From a virus, in IMG/VR virus record IMGVR_UViG_3300025104_000002, positions 1-51,786 of that record: a stretch of DNA of 51,786 nucleotides; one strand, given 5' to 3'. The position numbers and the translations under genes were made by a program. Shown here one piece after another: positions 1,655 through 45,423 of the stretch. The first letter of the stretch is position 1; each line of letters starts with the position of its first letter. The notes under the pieces were generated by a model. It had not been told where the DNA came from. It searched no databases and saw nothing but the letters and a program-made list of their open reading frames with translations.

Positions 1655-4600
1655 CGCCGTACAGGTCGAGAATCTGCTGAGTCTCGGGCCGCATCGCTTT
1701 CGGTGCGGCCCTCAAGTACCGCTCGGTGGCAGTCCGCTGGGCCTCACGCAGTGCCCGGTTGACGCCATCCTCGAAGTTGCGAATCTCAAGGCCGGTACCC
1801 TTGGCCGCTTCGTTCCAGTCCTTGACCATCTCCATCACTTCGCGGGCACGTTCGTTGTCCTTGGCGATCTTGGCCCCGACGTACATGCCTCGGTACATGG
1901 CGGCAACATCCTTCTGGTAGTCACCGATCCGCTTGGACAAGCGAACCACGTCGTTCTCGGCCACGGCTGAGGCAGGGTAGAAACCCAGCGCACGGGTCAG
2001 CATGGTACCAAGATGCAGGTCGTTGCTCACCACGTAGCCCTTCTGGCTGACGATGGCCCCGGCGTTGTTGTAGGCGTACATGTCGCCCAAAATGCGCAGG
2101 AACGCGACCGGCGACTCACGCAGAATCTTGTTGAGTGATGTGACATCCGGCAGGACACCGACAGTCTCCAGCCCATACTTGGTCAGGTCAGCACCCATTG
2201 CCACAGCACCTTGCAGGAAGGATGCCACCGGGCCAGCGATCTCGATCAGTTCACGCCCCACGTCTGCACCGGCCAGCGCAATGCCGGTGCCGGGGATGAT
2301 GTTGGACAGCGACACCCGGTCGGCCACGTTGGCTGGCGTGATGGTGTTGAGCAGACCGCGCATGAGGATCGGGGTCATGCCGGGAGCGATGGCGTCCAGT
2401 GCTTCAGCCAGCGTCTTCTCGGCGCTGCCCTTCCACACGGCACTCGGGCCAAGCCCAAGTCCTTGGGCGATGGTGTCGATGATGTCCATCAGGTCTTCAG
2501 CGAAGGGCAGACCCTTCAGACCGGCGAACATGGCGAGGATGCCCAGCGCCAGCAGTTGTTCCTTGCGCGGCAGCGCGGCCAGCATCTGAATGCTGTTGAC
2601 CGGGAACATCTTGAACACGAACAGGAACTGCCGCACGTCACCACGGAACATGGCGGGGCGGTTGAACATCGCGTACTCACCGAGCGTGTTGTCGATCATG
2701 TCCACGGCGAACTTGTCGGCCACCTCGAAAGCTGTTGCTTCGTCCTTGCCTTCCGACAGGGCGCGTGCATAGGCCATGCGGAACGCTGCCAAACCTGTTG
2801 CTCGGCGGCTGTGCTGCTCGGTGTAGTTGAACAGCGACATCCACGTCTCAGCCGCCTTCTTGGACAGACCAGAGCGGAACTTGCCTCGGGCAGAACCCAG
2901 CAGCGAGTTGGTCAGCGCGGCCTGCATGGTGCCACCGCCAACTTCCTTCTGCATGAAGCGGGCCTCAGCCTCGGTGAACCCAGATGCAGCCAGCTTGGCA
3001 GGGTCGGCCAGCAGGTCATCCCAGAACTTCACCTCGCTCTGACCGAAGCCCTTCGTGGCACCGATGGCGCGGGAGACTTCGACCGCCGACATACCCCATC
3101 CGAAACCACCGCCGAAGGCGTTCTTCTGGTTGTACCCAGCGAACGCGGGCAGCACGTTGGTCGCCAGCGCGAGGTAGTTCAGGATGGCCGTGGCAAACGA
3201 CGCACCCATGAAGCCGAAAGTTGTTGCCGTGCGGATGAACGACGCAGCTTCGCCCGACGCGAAATCGGTGTAGTCCACGTTGGACTGGGACTCCATGAAG
3301 GCCACGGCGCGACGGCCACGATCCTTGTAGCGATTGCCCATGATTGGCGATTCTTTGATCACGAACGTGAAGTGGTAGTCGTCGAACTCCCGCTTGGCCG
3401 CGAGCTTCGCAGCTTCGGGCATGTTCGGGTCTTTCTCGGCGGCTTCCCACGCAGCCTTGCGGCGGTCATACTCCACCTTGTCACCGAACCACAGGCGGAT
3501 GGAGTCTGGGTCGTTGTCGTCGAACAGGCGGTCGAGGCGGTGCCGGTTCTGCTTGCGGGCCACAGTGGACGCAGTTGCCTCAAGATGCTGCGACACGTAC
3601 TTGATGGTGTTCGGGTCTTCGCCCGGAGTGCCTGCACGCTTGAGGCGGGTACGCGCCTTGGCGTTCTGCTGGGTCAGACCGACGATCAGGCGCTCACGTT
3701 CCTCCGGCGTGATGCTGATGGAGAACCGGGTGATCGCGGAGATGATTTCGTTGAGGTTGGCCTCAGCCGTGGTGGACACGGTTTCGCGGGCTGTCTCGGC
3801 TTGCGCAACAAGTTTGACCTTCTTGATCACAAACTCAGTACCGTCCAGCACCTCCATCTCGAAGCCGCCTTCGACACTATCGAACAGCCCTTGGACACGC
3901 TCAGCTATCGCCTCGGCTTCGGCGCGGCTCTCGACCTGCACGAACAGAAGCTGCTGGCGGTACTGATCCGACACCTTGAAGACGCGACCCGTGCGGGGGT
4001 CAACGGCTTGGATACGCACCTGCCACGAGCCCTCACGACCGAACGGCACGTAGCCACCAGCGATGGATCGTTTGGCGAGCAGTTCAGCATCGGTCTTGCT
4101 CAACTCGAACAGCGCCAGATTCTGGATGGCCTGCTGCATGGCAAAGCGGTCGGGGCCGGAGCGCGGGATGTTGGAGCCTTCTTTCAGCGCCTCGATACCT
4201 TTGAACACATCGTCAGCCTCGGCCTGATCGAAGAAGTCCTGCACGTCCTTGTTGCGGTCGGTGTCGCGGCCCAGCACAGCGGCGTTGAACTTCTTGATGA
4301 AGTCGTTGGCAGCGGCCACGGACTCGCGCTTGGTCAGCATCACGCCACTGTCGTCGATGGTCGAACCCTCGGCCCGCAGGGACAGGTACTTGTCCTCGAT
4401 CTTCTTGAGAAATGCCTTGTCGTTCTCGGTCAGGGCACGACCGAGGAAGCGGGCCACAACACGTTCCACGTTGTCACGCTCACCTTTGGCCGCAGCGAAG
4501 TTCGCCAGCAGCATGTCGATGGCCGACTTGTTCATCGTGTCGCGCACCTCGTTGTACATGATCCACTCAAGGCTCTGCTCGGTCAGGTCGGGCATGGCGG

Positions 4601-42137: not shown

Positions 42138-42234
42138 CCCACCCTGTTGCAGTTCGGGGCTGCGCTGGAGTTCGGTGTGCCCCAGCGCGTGATCAGTCGG
42201 ATCGTCAGACGTGCATCCTACAAGGACATTTAAT

Positions 42235-45200
42235 ATGATGGACATCGTAACCATTGATTTTGAAACCTACTACGACAAGGACTATTCCCTGTCGAAGATG
42301 ACCACTGAATCCTACATCCGTGACCAGAGGTTCGAGATCATCGGTGTGGGCGTCAAGGTCAACAACTACCCCACCGACTGGTACAGCGGCGACAACCCCG
42401 GTAAGTTCCTCAAGTCGCTGAACTACAGCAATAAGGCCATCCTGTGTCACAACACAGCGTTCGATGGTGCCATCTTATCGTGGCACTTCGACATCCGTCC
42501 GAGACTGTGGTTGGACACCCTGAGCATGGCGCGTCCCTTTCACCAGTTGACGGTGGGCGGTAGCCTCAAGGCGTTGGCCCAATACTACGGGTTGGGCGTC
42601 AAGGGCGAGGAAGTGGTAGCTGCAATCGGCAAGCGGCGCAAGGATTTCACCCCCGAAGAACTTGCCCGGTACGGGCAGTATTGCATCAATGACGTGAACT
42701 TGACCAAGGCACTGTTCGACAAGCTCAAGGTGGGGTTCCCTGTCAGCGAACTGCTGGTCATCGACCAGACGCTGCGCATGTACACCGAGCCGGTGATCGA
42801 ACTGGATGTGCCACTCTTGGAGAAACATCTTGAGGAAGTCCGCACCCGCAAGCGCACCCTGATCTCTGACATCGGCCACGGCATGGGTGGTGAGCAGGCG
42901 GTGCAGGACATGCTGATGTCCAACGACAAGTTCGCCGAGTACCTCAAGCGGCTGGGTGTGGAGCCGCCCACCAAGATCAGCGCCAAGACGGGCAAGGAAT
43001 CGTGGGCCTTCGCCAAGACTGACAAGGGCATGACCGACTTGCTGGAACATCCTGATGAGCGTGTGCAGGCTGCGGTCGCTGCCCGACTGGGTGTGAAGTC
43101 CACCCTCGAAGAAACCCGCACCGAGAACCTGATCGCCGTAGCGAAGCGTGGGCGACTACCCATCATGCTCAACTACTACGGTGCCCACACGGGGCGCTTC
43201 AGTGGCGGCGACAAGCTCAACCTCCAGAACCTGCCGAGCCGTGGCAACACGACCATCCGCAGGGCGCTCAAGGCACCCGAGGGCCACGTGCTCATCTCGT
43301 GTGACTCCGCGCAGATCGAAGCACGTACTGTGGCATGGGTGGCAGGGCAGGACGATCTGGTGCAGGCGTTCCGTGACAAGCGGGATGTGTATTCCGAGTT
43401 CGCCTCCGAGGTCTACGGTCGCAAGATCACCAAGGCCGACAAGGTGGAGCGGTTCGTGGGTAAGACCTGTATTGCCGAGGGAACTCTTGTATTATCGCAT
43501 CACGGCTGGAAGCCTATTGAGTCGGTGACGACCGACGATTTGTTGTGGGATGGACAGGAGTGGGTATGCCATCAAGGATTACTGAACAACGGCATCAAGC
43601 CAACATTGAATCTGTGCGGCGCTTGGTTGACACCGGATCACCAAGTCTGGTCAGGGACGCAGTGGCTGGAAGCGCAATCAGTAGTAGCCGACGAAGATAC
43701 CCTCTACCGAGCATTGGACACCGGAGCGGAAAACTTACCGTCACAGGCTACATTGCTGGCACCCGAGGCGGGGTCAGTGCCCTTGTGGTCAGATGCGACT
43801 GCAACGAAGCCGAGTATCGAGTTGACCACCATAACTTCAAAAATTTCAGAAGCACTCGCTGCCCTCTGTGCGCCAAGAAAGCATCGGTTGCAAAACGCTA
43901 TTGGATGTACAGCGAAGCAATGGCGGATGATGACCACCGGACTCGCTTGCTCAATCGTCTCGCTTCGGCAATCACTCGCTGCCACTCTCCATCCAACAGA
44001 GCGTATCAGCACTATGGTGGGCGCGGCATACGGGTGTGCCCCGAGTGGCGCTTTGACCGAGCAGAGTTCCTGCGGTACGTCCAGACCCTCGACGGTTGGG
44101 ACAACCCGACTTTCGAGATGGATCGGATCGATGTGGACGGGCATTATGAACCGGGGAATATCCGCTTCGTATCGCGGAGCGATAACCTCCGCAACAAGCG
44201 CAAGATCGCAGACCTTGAAGCGCGTGTACGACATCTTGAACAGCGGCTCAAGGAACAGGTTCACGATCCTGACTGAAGCTGGCCCGCTCGTTGTCCACAA
44301 CTGCGTTCTGGGTCTGGGCTACGGCATGGGCGCAGAGAAGTTCCGACGCACTCTGGAGATCGGCCAAGGCGGCATCAACGTGGTGATCGACATCAACGAG
44401 GCAGAGCGGATCGTCCGCCTCTACCGACAGAAGAACTGGAAGATCGTACAGTTTTGGCAGAAGTGCGGCAACGCACTGAAGGACATGTTGTACGGTGGCA
44501 GCAATGCGCTGCACCCGCAGGTTCGCTACGACCCCAAGGGTATCCGCTTGCCAAACGGGTTCTACATCCAGTACCCGGCGCTGCGCGAGACGGCCAATGG
44601 GTTCATGTACATCTCGGATGCCCGCACCTACCAGAAGGCGCTCAAGGATCGAGTGCTCACTGGCGCACCGGCTGACGACATCGCATGGACTCGCGTCTAC
44701 GGCGGCAAGGTGACGGAAAACTGCATCGCCGCAGGGACGGAGGTGCTGACCAACCGAGGCTGGGTTCCTATAGAGAACGTGCAGTCGGCAGACATGGTGC
44801 ATGACGGAGTGGAGTTCGTTCGCCACGGTGGGACAGTGTTCAAATCTGTCCAAGACTGTATCACCATTGATGGCGTGTGGATGACCCCAGACCACGAGGT
44901 ACTGACAAATACCGGATGGCAAGCTGCATCACAGAACCCCGAACCTTACAGACCAAACCTTCGGCATGTTGACCGCTATCAACTGCGAGTGGACCACGCG
45001 CAGGACCAACACCACGAACAAGCGCAACACCGAGCGCAGAGTGGATGTACCGGCGCTCAGTGCGCAGACTGGGATACCCAGATCAACCCTGTACTACCGA
45101 CTCAAGCACGGCCTGTCTTTGACATCCTCAACGCAGGACCAAGACAACGGTTCGTAGTTCGTGGCGATAACGGTCCGTTCATTGTGCATAACTGTGTGCA

Positions 45201-45423
45201 AGCTCTTGCTGCATTGGTGATCCGTGAGCAGATGGTCGAGGCTGGCAAGCACTTCAAGGTGGCCTTCCAAGTCCACGACGAGATCATCATCTGCGTCCCC
45301 GAGAGCGCCGCGCTGGCAGCGCAAGCCAAGCTCGAAGAGATCATGTCCACCCCGCCCAAGTGGGCACCAGACCTGCCGGTTGCATGTGAATCCGGTGTGG
45401 CTGCGAACTATGGAGATACCTGA
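42235..45423 (+). CDS. Family A DNA polymerase with two inteins
   Basis: The start is set at ATG 42235 (AAGGA upstream), giving a 1062-residue precursor; a GTG at 42211 is the alternative. The N-terminal 3'-5' exonuclease begins with VTIDFETYYDK (exo I, D8 and E10). Polymerase motif A is DSAQIEAR (D357), motif B GKT/CVLGLGYGMG is split by intein 1 (residues 412-689), and intein 2 (830-986) splits TEN/CVQALAALV. Motif C is HDE near D1015. Removing both inteins leaves 627 residues, a normal phage polymerase. The enzyme replicates the phage genome with the primase-helicase. Activity requires both splicing events. Confidence 0.92.
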   Translation: MMDIVTIDFETYYDKDYSLSKMTTESYIRDQRFEIIGVGVKVNNYPTDWYSGDNPGKFLKSLNYSNKAILCHNTAFDGAILSWHFDIRPRLWLDTLSMARPFHQLTVGGSLKALAQYYGLGVKGEEVVAAIGKRRKDFTPEELARYGQYCINDVNLTKALFDKLKVGFPVSELLVIDQTLRMYTEPVIELDVPLLEKHLEEVRTRKRTLISDIGHGMGGEQAVQDMLMSNDKFAEYLKRLGVEPPTKISAKTGKESWAFAKTDKGMTDLLEHPDERVQAAVAARLGVKSTLEETRTENLIAVAKRGRLPIMLNYYGAHTGRFSGGDKLNLQNLPSRGNTTIRRALKAPEGHVLISCDSAQIEARTVAWVAGQDDLVQAFRDKRDVYSEFASEVYGRKITKADKVERFVGKTCIAEGTLVLSHHGWKPIESVTTDDLLWDGQEWVCHQGLLNNGIKPTLNLCGAWLTPDHQVWSGTQWLEAQSVVADEDTLYRALDTGAENLPSQATLLAPEAGSVPLWSDATATKPSIELTTITSKISEALAALCAPRKHRLQNAIGCTAKQWRMMTTGLACSIVSLRQSLAATLHPTERISTMVGAAYGCAPSGALTEQSSCGTSRPSTVGTTRLSRWIGSMWTGIMNRGISASYRGAITSATSARSQTLKRVYDILNSGSRNRFTILTEAGPLVVHNCVLGLGYGMGAEKFRRTLEIGQGGINVVIDINEAERIVRLYRQKNWKIVQFWQKCGNALKDMLYGGSNALHPQVRYDPKGIRLPNGFYIQYPALRETANGFMYISDARTYQKALKDRVLTGAPADDIAWTRVYGGKVTENCIAAGTEVLTNRGWVPIENVQSADMVHDGVEFVRHGGTVFKSVQDCITIDGVWMTPDHEVLTNTGWQAASQNPEPYRPNLRHVDRYQLRVDHAQDQHHEQAQHRAQSGCTGAQCADWDTQINPVLPTQARPVFDILNAGPRQRFVVRGDNGPFIVHNCVQALAALVIREQMVEAGKHFKVAFQVHDEIIICVPESAALAAQAKLEEIMSTPPKWAPDLPVACESGVAANYGDT
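43468..44301 (+). mobile_element. Intein 1 in polymerase motif B (278 aa)
   Basis: Block A is CIAEGTLVLSHHGWKPIE, block B is LTPDHQVW, block F is RVYDILNSGSRNRF and block G ends LVVHN before Cys+1. These are complete class 1 splicing signatures. Between B and F about 165 residues are Ser/Thr/Ala/Leu-rich without a recognisable endonuclease fold. The DNA there encodes an HNH nuclease in another frame. The insertion lies in the fingers O-helix of the polymerase, a classic conserved intein site. The intein is homologous to intein 2 at both ends. Confidence 0.93.
43566..44276 (+). CDS. HNH endonuclease overprinted in polymerase intein 1
   Basis: The ATG at 43566 is preceded by AGGAG five nt upstream, so it has its own ribosome site inside the intein message. 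The 236-residue product has an N-terminal segment, then GKLTVTGYIAGTRGG and a Cys-rich knuckle (VRCDC and STRCPLCAKK), the HNH region ITRCHSPSNRAYQHYGGRG, VCPEWRFDRAEF, MDRIDVDGHYEPGN and RFVSRSDNLRNKR, and a C-terminal coiled coil. That is a complete phage-type HNH nuclease. Its first codon position is the intein third position. It covers intein block B at its N-terminal side and block F at its C-terminal side, so essential splicing residues are doubly encoded. Confidence 0.9.
   Translation: MPSRITEQRHQANIESVRRLVDTGSPSLVRDAVAGSAISSSRRRYPLPSIGHRSGKLTVTGYIAGTRGGVSALVVRCDCNEAEYRVDHHNFKNFRSTRCPLCAKKASVAKRYWMYSEAMADDDHRTRLLNRLASAITRCHSPSNRAYQHYGGRGIRVCPEWRFDRAEFLRYVQTLDGWDNPTFEMDRIDVDGHYEPGNIRFVSRSDNLRNKRKIADLEARVRHLEQRLKEQVHDPD
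44722..45192 (+). mobile_element. Intein 2 in DNA polymerase (157 aa mini-intein)
   Basis: Block A is CIAAGTEVLTNRGWVPIE, block B is MTPDHEVL, block F is PVFDILNAGPRQRF and block G ends FIVHN before Cys+1. The size is that of a mini-intein. The ends align with those of intein 1 (CIAxGTxVL, GWxPIE, TPDH, DILNxGxRxRF, VHN), so the two are related. The residues between B and F are His/Gln/Arg-rich and include a region encoded by a remnant of a nested nuclease gene. Confidence 0.92.
44966..45157 (+). pseudogene. Remnant of an out-of-frame HNH gene in intein 2
   Basis: A 63-codon frame in the third reading frame starts at 44966 and is open upstream only back to a stop at 44903-44905. It reads INCEWTTRRTNTTNKRNT, the segment that follows the catalytic His/Asn region in phage HNH nucleases (compare the NIRFVSRSDNLRNKR tail of the complete copy). 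A small HTH (VPALSAQTGIPRSTLYYRLKHG) like those on HNH C-termini comes next. No nuclease core precedes it. I read it as the tail of a deleted nested endonuclease. A functional DNA-binding mini-protein cannot be excluded. Confidence 0.7.

Follow-up and report, generated by a model that had tools for sequence, protein, structure and literature searches.

A putative HNH homing endonuclease gene nested out of frame within an intein of a phage DNA polymerase

A stretch of viral DNA of 51,786 nucleotides (nt; IMG/VR record IMGVR_UViG_3300025104_000002, positions 1 to 51,786), referred to in its whole length as the window, contains a family-A DNA polymerase gene that carries two inteins (42211–45423). 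In textbook inteins the homing nuclease is an in-frame domain. Analysis of the first intein of this gene (intein 1, 43468–44301) indicates that it is most probably a mobile intein whose homing endonuclease, of the HNH type, is encoded not as such a domain but as a nested and independently translated gene (43560–44276). This gene lies at frame offset 2 relative to the polymerase, i.e. in the -1 frame, and the in-frame endonuclease of a canonical homing intein is thus not what is found here. The nested arrangement is widespread, being shared by dozens of phages and prophages that are only distantly related, and is not peculiar to this phage. All window features described below are on the + strand.

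The polymerase gene is one continuous open reading frame (ORF) of 1070 amino acids (aa) with profile matches to Pfam DNA_pol_A (2.6e-29), a 3'-5' exonuclease (8.9e-6) and phrog_17 (9.9e-85). Intein 1 occupies 278 aa of this frame, from Cys1 to Asn278, and is followed by a Cys. Its splicing blocks A, B, F and G, described as intact in the initial annotation, were all located (Cys at 43468, TPDH in block B, VYDILN..RF in block F and VVHN/C in block G), in agreement with the sequence criteria for Hint domains, namely Cys1, a block B TxxH and a C-terminal His-Asn followed by Cys, Ser or Thr. The structural model has two Hint halves, residues 1–95 and 246–278, at a predicted local distance difference test score (pLDDT) of about 95, and nearly all of the PDB fold matches listed for it were inteins or Hint-type domains, solved mini-inteins included (best probability 1.00, E 0.007). 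Residues 96–245 (43753–44202) form a stop-free spacer of 150 residues that is predicted to be disordered (pLDDT <50). As polymerase and intein are continuous in one ORF, this is not a split gene.

The nested HNH frame is free of stops from 43521 to a TGA at 44274–44276 that lies within intein block F, and the gene comprises 236–238 codons depending on whether GTG 43560 or ATG 43566 is chosen as the start. A complete HNH-type ORF preceded by AGGAG had been proposed from the sequence, and both parts were borne out; AGGAG (43556–43560) is 5 nt before ATG 43566, and residues 50–214 of the protein match phrog_374 (HNH endonuclease) at 2.2e-35. These residues (43713–44207) constitute the conserved core with the zinc-binding cysteines and the HNH region, and C77, C79, C99, C102, D186, R187 and N198 are invariant. 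The protein model has a mean pLDDT of 79.8. Searches of the protein against Pfam and NCBIfam gave no match at gathering level, and RSC8 and cytochrome oxidase were discarded as structural relatives since they matched only short local stretches around the cysteines. The comparison made earlier with a shadow ORF of 73 codons was correct, this being the other ORF in the same frame relation within the polymerase gene (44454–44675).

The distribution of the arrangement was evaluated in a first set of 109 loci, made up of the window, 10 phage records and 28 and 70 IMG/VR loci from two scans. At 53 of these loci the HNH is enclosed in a host ORF that exceeds it in length and runs through the match without a stop; 33 of them have offset 2 and 20 have offset 1 (30 and 20 distinct intein sequences, respectively). 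All of blocks A, B, F and G could be located in 52 of the 53, by pattern in 50 cases and by hand in two; the N part is missing from the open host frame of L022. Loci L065, L067, L075 and L091, where the HNH sits in an ORF far longer than the match and block F was not found by pattern, were counted as not embedded. A scan of bacterial genomes added 30 loci, 29 of them embedded and one of them this phage again, with L111–L118 at offset 2 and L120–L140 at offset 1. The latter are mostly Bacillota polymerases and represent a third group with a longer HNH at offset 1; the block F pattern missed several of them, the motif being visible in their C-terminal stretches, and in many the HNH frame extends beyond the intein end into the C-extein. 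Overall, an out-of-frame HNH inside an open host ORF was found at 82 of 139 related HNH loci, redundant copies included and most with recognised intein blocks, while an HNH in frame with an intein was seen at none of the 139. The arrangement is not confined to polymerases; the host gene of L056, and by likeness that of L057, encodes an SNF2-type helicase with the same intein architecture.

A tblastn search of phage records with the HNH protein matched 898 records. The best 40 rows fell mostly under DNA polymerase or intein features of Salmonella, Escherichia and Pseudomonas phages, the remainder being annotated as endonuclease or hypothetical protein or belonging to an unannotated Vibrio record. 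Five annotated records that were inspected (L001 and L003–L006) again had a frame offset of 2, and the record of the Kagunavirus fPoEco01 displays the architecture seen in the window. Block-F-like motifs of a further intein were seen elsewhere in the polymerase ORFs of L010, L021 and L112, and the polymerase frame is interrupted elsewhere in the phage records L017 and L022, possibly by sequencing errors.

In order to compare constraint on the two frames, as had been advised, nucleotide differences were classed as HNH-silent/intein-changing or HNH-changing/intein-silent, with kappa fixed at 2. Between the window and L009, intein-silent differences prevailed in the N overlap (4:14, the classes being given in this order) and in the C overlap (1:5), and HNH-silent ones in the middle (93:25; N overlap against middle, Fisher p=5e-6). 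Summed over chosen offset-2 pairs the ratio was 37:75 in the N overlap, 480:194 (expected 256:275) in the middle and 5:22 in the C overlap. Offset-1 pairs gave 13:23 in the N overlap and 571:170 in the middle (expected 306:341), and their C overlap, with few sites, had no intein-frame excess (10:3). Each frame accordingly displays its own pattern of constraint across relatives; the intein frame governs the ends, at offset 1 the N end only, and the HNH frame governs the middle. The HNH core (43713–44207) covers the intein spacer (43753–44202) almost exactly. With the core lying over a disordered spacer, true double coding is limited to roughly 37 N-terminal and 17 C-terminal HNH codons. The structural models agree with the constraint pattern, and the presumed overprint is therefore a nested gene that, in its core, demands nothing of the intein beyond a spacer free of stops. 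The claim of two overlapping genes holds in that the frames do overlap, but double coding proper is confined to the two ends. In offset-2 middles, differences silent in both frames were enriched 3.8 against 1.87 for the HNH-silent class, which could reflect a weak amino-acid constraint on the spacer; the counts are small, offset-1 middles had no such excess (1.84 against 1.86), and nothing was built on it.

Nuclease and splicing blocks are also transmitted together. The window and L009 are 43% identical in the extein, 76% in the HNH core and 87% in the splicing blocks, and the HNH core and the blocks were closer than the exteins in every one of the 105 pairs formed by 15 chosen offset-2 loci. 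In the same loci distances of the HNH core correlated at 0.59 with those of the blocks and at 0.33 with those of the extein. Of 1,129 records that matched an 87-residue query representing the empty site, 676 covered at least 80% of it in one place, a count that takes in all identities and not only close relatives. Among the rows listed, relatives in Jerseyvirus and Kagunavirus included continuous sites at 96.6% identity (Kenya-K47) as well as sites split at residue 40–44, the point of insertion (Ent3, S528 and others). Occupied and empty insertion sites coexist in one phage group.

Candidate signals for separate translation of the HNH recur at fixed positions. In the window two Shine-Dalgarno (SD)-like sequences, GGGATGG (43547–43553) and AGGAG (43556–43560), with duplex energies of -6.4 and -6.9, are built from codons of the intein WDGQE motif. 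HNH initiation could take place at either GTG 43560 or ATG 43566; the position conserved across relatives is the GTG and not the ATG. Start codons of offset-2 members lie at -70 or -64 relative to TxxH, which in the window are GTG 43560 and ATG 43566. An NTG with an SD-like energy of -5.4 or lower was present at the tested positions in 26 of 30 distinct offset-2 inteins, including L030 and L031, whose HNH frame opens only later, and at +25, +40 or +43 in 16 of 20 distinct offset-1 inteins; 0.5–0.8% of background codon positions met the same definition. The codons of W-D-G-x-E-W (TGG GAY GGN NNN GAR TGG) contain GGGAYGG and an out-of-frame RTG. In supplying both an SD-like site and a start codon, they explain why the HNH frame is usable.

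The mechanism that we propose starts from one mRNA. Read in the polymerase frame, it would give a precursor protein whose Hint domain excises itself along with the junk-like spacer of about 150 residues; read from the internal start at 43560/43566, it would give an HNH nuclease whose C-terminus is encoded in block F. Polymerase genes without the intein would be nicked or cut by this nuclease at the place of insertion, and their repair would bring in intein and nuclease together. The sequence data show the two open frames and their conservation, the constraint map, the co-transmission of blocks and nuclease and the occupied and empty sites; that the HNH is translated and cuts a specific site, that homing takes place and that the intein splices in the cell is inferred. 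The best reading of the sequences remains that of the initial annotation, in which intein and nuclease are separate products, with both frames conserved in dozens of loci, each under its own constraint, and with recurrent SD-like starts.

That the HNH frame is open by chance or through a sequencing artefact has a negligible probability and is already refuted by the comparative data. GC-rich sequence does yield long shadow ORFs, and one of 198 aa runs antisense over this very stretch. When HNH synonymous codons were resampled from each locus's own extein codon usage, however, the window acquired a mean of 5.07 host-frame stops with P(no stop) = 0.0007, and the largest P(no stop) over the 53 embedded loci was 0.059. 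Across the HNH match of these loci the third same-strand frame has 4–33 stops, and non-embedded relatives have stops in both other frames except for L110, a 33-residue match. The strength of the phrog_374 match and the recurrence of the arrangement in the locus set, including L030/L031 with a host frame still open at 35% GC, also speak against chance, which the initial annotation had likewise called a poor explanation. A second assembly, L111, aligns with the window without gaps over 6,807 bp and has a single mismatch (99.985% identity); the frame arrangement is thus not due to a frameshift or assembly error. The L111 contig (CAKZRW010000020.1) is binned as an actinobacterial metagenome-assembled genome yet is this phage, probably a binning error. 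A programmed -1 frameshift by ribosomes reading the polymerase frame, which would give a fusion of the intein N-half to the HNH and no free nuclease, is very improbable and disfavoured on sequence features. It would fit offset 2 and the slight extension of the open HNH frame upstream of the start, but in L001, L005, L006, L025, L027 and others that frame becomes open a single codon ahead of the conserved ATG, so that hardly any room to shift is left. No slippery heptamer was seen by eye, without use of a program, in the window or L001, offset-1 members would require a +1 shift, and the SD-like starts recur at one position.

A pseudogene or passenger HNH of recent insertion, untranslated and open only for lack of time, is also quite unlikely. 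Decayed HNH frames do occur, in L010, L030/L031 and L125 and in the second intein of the window, but the excess of intein-changing over HNH-changing differences in the middle, in both frame relations, and an HNH frame intact across the match in most of the 82 embedded loci argue for its maintenance. A role of an expressed HNH in packaging, replication or breakdown of host DNA, rather than in intein mobility, is unlikely but carries somewhat more weight, HNH proteins having other roles in phages (PMC11855218). Against such a role, the embedded HNH travels with the splicing blocks more closely than with the extein, and occupied and empty sites occur within one phage group.

Several observations weigh against a mobile intein with a nested, translated nuclease. 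The HNH frame is broken while the intein is open in L010, L030/L031 and L125; this is as expected for a decaying homing nuclease but also fits a dispensable passenger. Such cases, on which the initial annotation had placed weight, are rare and were read as usual homing-nuclease decay, and the converse, an intact HNH with a broken intein frame, is likewise rare (L034 and L050) and occurs where the gene became a split-intein arrangement. The pairs used in the constraint and mobility comparisons are not independent, and a conserved site holding a similar element could also result from recombination without homing. Four of 30 offset-2 and four of 20 offset-1 distinct inteins have no start of the above kind at the tested positions, and as the signal is partly forced by the W-D-G-x-E-W codons, the counts overstate how far its conservation speaks for its use. 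A fold search with the HNH model gave no significant match to a solved HNH among the solved structures. Finally, at what we take to be the first His of the HNH motif the window has Arg (DRID), so that of the hallmark residues said to be kept in both proteins the intein blocks are complete and the HNH motif is not. Of 81 embedded loci that were scored, 75 have Arg at this position and 6 were not parsed; of 56 free relatives, 37 have Arg, 8 were not parsed and 11 have another letter by a loose pattern. Arg is thus a family-wide variant. The name HNH therefore rests on the profile match, and together with the fold search result this means that catalysis is deduced from family membership.

A tree of 84 HNHs, whose bootstrap had not settled, places the offset-2 members and a sister offset-1 group of Bacillota type in one clade and the other offset-1 members in a separate clade adjoining free-standing nucleases. 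The separate clades imply that the nested arrangement arose at least twice, and we claim no more than two origins. L034 (2544–3451 and 3342–4088) and L050 (3169–4357) nest within the two clades and are fractured, the polymerase being split into an N-extein–IntN ORF and an IntC–C-extein ORF with an intact HNH between them. The stretch of spacer freed in this manner has 7 and 11 stops, respectively, and provides a natural control, the clearest one available, against chance openness. In L050 the IntC ATG (4055) overlaps the HNH stop as ATGA, which suggests translational coupling; in L034 the IntC ATG is at 3354, with an SD-like energy of -5.3.

The second intein of the window (intein 2, 44722–45192) is a mini-intein of 157 aa in the polymerase frame. 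It contains the remnant of a second out-of-frame HNH at frame offset 1 (44906–45154; phrog_3377, 2.3e-5), of which the N-terminal start region and the C-terminal helix-turn-helix are kept and a core of about 130 residues is gone, with both frames still open. The full version of this HNH is found in a homologous intein of Shewanella phage SFCi1. Both inteins of the polymerase gene thus carry, or carried, an out-of-frame nuclease.

Every ingredient of the arrangement has precedent. Natural split inteins are widely used tools, and fractured genes, in which a free-standing endonuclease lies between the halves of a split intein, were reportedly described by Dassa et al. in 2009. In fractured genes and in intein 1 alike, the endonuclease has an ORF of its own at the location expected for an in-frame endonuclease, but intein 1 is uninterrupted within a single ORF. 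The fractured relatives L034 and L050 belong to the HNH clades of the nested forms. An overlap of the present kind is already annotated in Hamiltonella phage APSE-1 (NC_000935), where the 'HNH endonuclease' coding sequence P46 overlaps the DNA polymerase coding sequence P45 in another frame. P46 sits within an intein having all blocks, and the record mentions no intein. Its annotated start (L037 3235–3657) is too far downstream and covers the C-terminal part only, the open frame and homology beginning near 2989–3007. The polymerase intein of Jerseyvirus Ent1 (HE775250) is annotated as 'encoding splicing domains' and holds an unannotated HNH relative at the same frame offset. The closest published case is the ShiLan element, which is likewise an out-of-frame HNH in an insertion that keeps the host frame stop-free, with a disjunct distribution suggesting homing (PMC11855218). 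Its authors found neither intein or intron domains nor a ribosome-binding site, whereas in the window the splicing blocks of the host frame are complete, a Hint fold is predicted for them, and SD-like starts recur. The dCTP deaminase intein of cyanophage CL131 also carries an HNH, but in the same ORF as its Hint domain and not in another frame as in the window; this in-frame HNH_3 intein was demonstrated to splice in E. coli (PMC6293099), and the idea of a structural bar to in-frame HNH domains in inteins was dropped on that account. No published description of an intein with an out-of-frame HNH was recognised among open-licence PMC papers, and one may exist elsewhere.

On balance we tend to regard these loci as a widespread gene-within-intein class in which the nuclease is nested in another frame, with at least two origins, two frame relations and a start derived from the codons of an intein motif, and in which the host frame is a selected stop-free spacer. 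Loss of this openness would lead to fractured genes and split inteins (L034 and L050), and deletion of the core with both frames left open to a mini-intein (intein 2). If so, the class would be a missing link among ordinary inteins, mini-inteins and natural split inteins that has been hidden because annotation retains the longer ORF only. At these loci, which come from phages and prophages of several bacterial phyla and for the most part lack annotation, nuclease and splicing domain are uncoupled and yet share the same DNA. The locus set offers a comparative system for the origin and upkeep of overlapping genes, for the expression of a selfish nuclease from within an essential gene and for the conversion of continuous inteins into natural split inteins.
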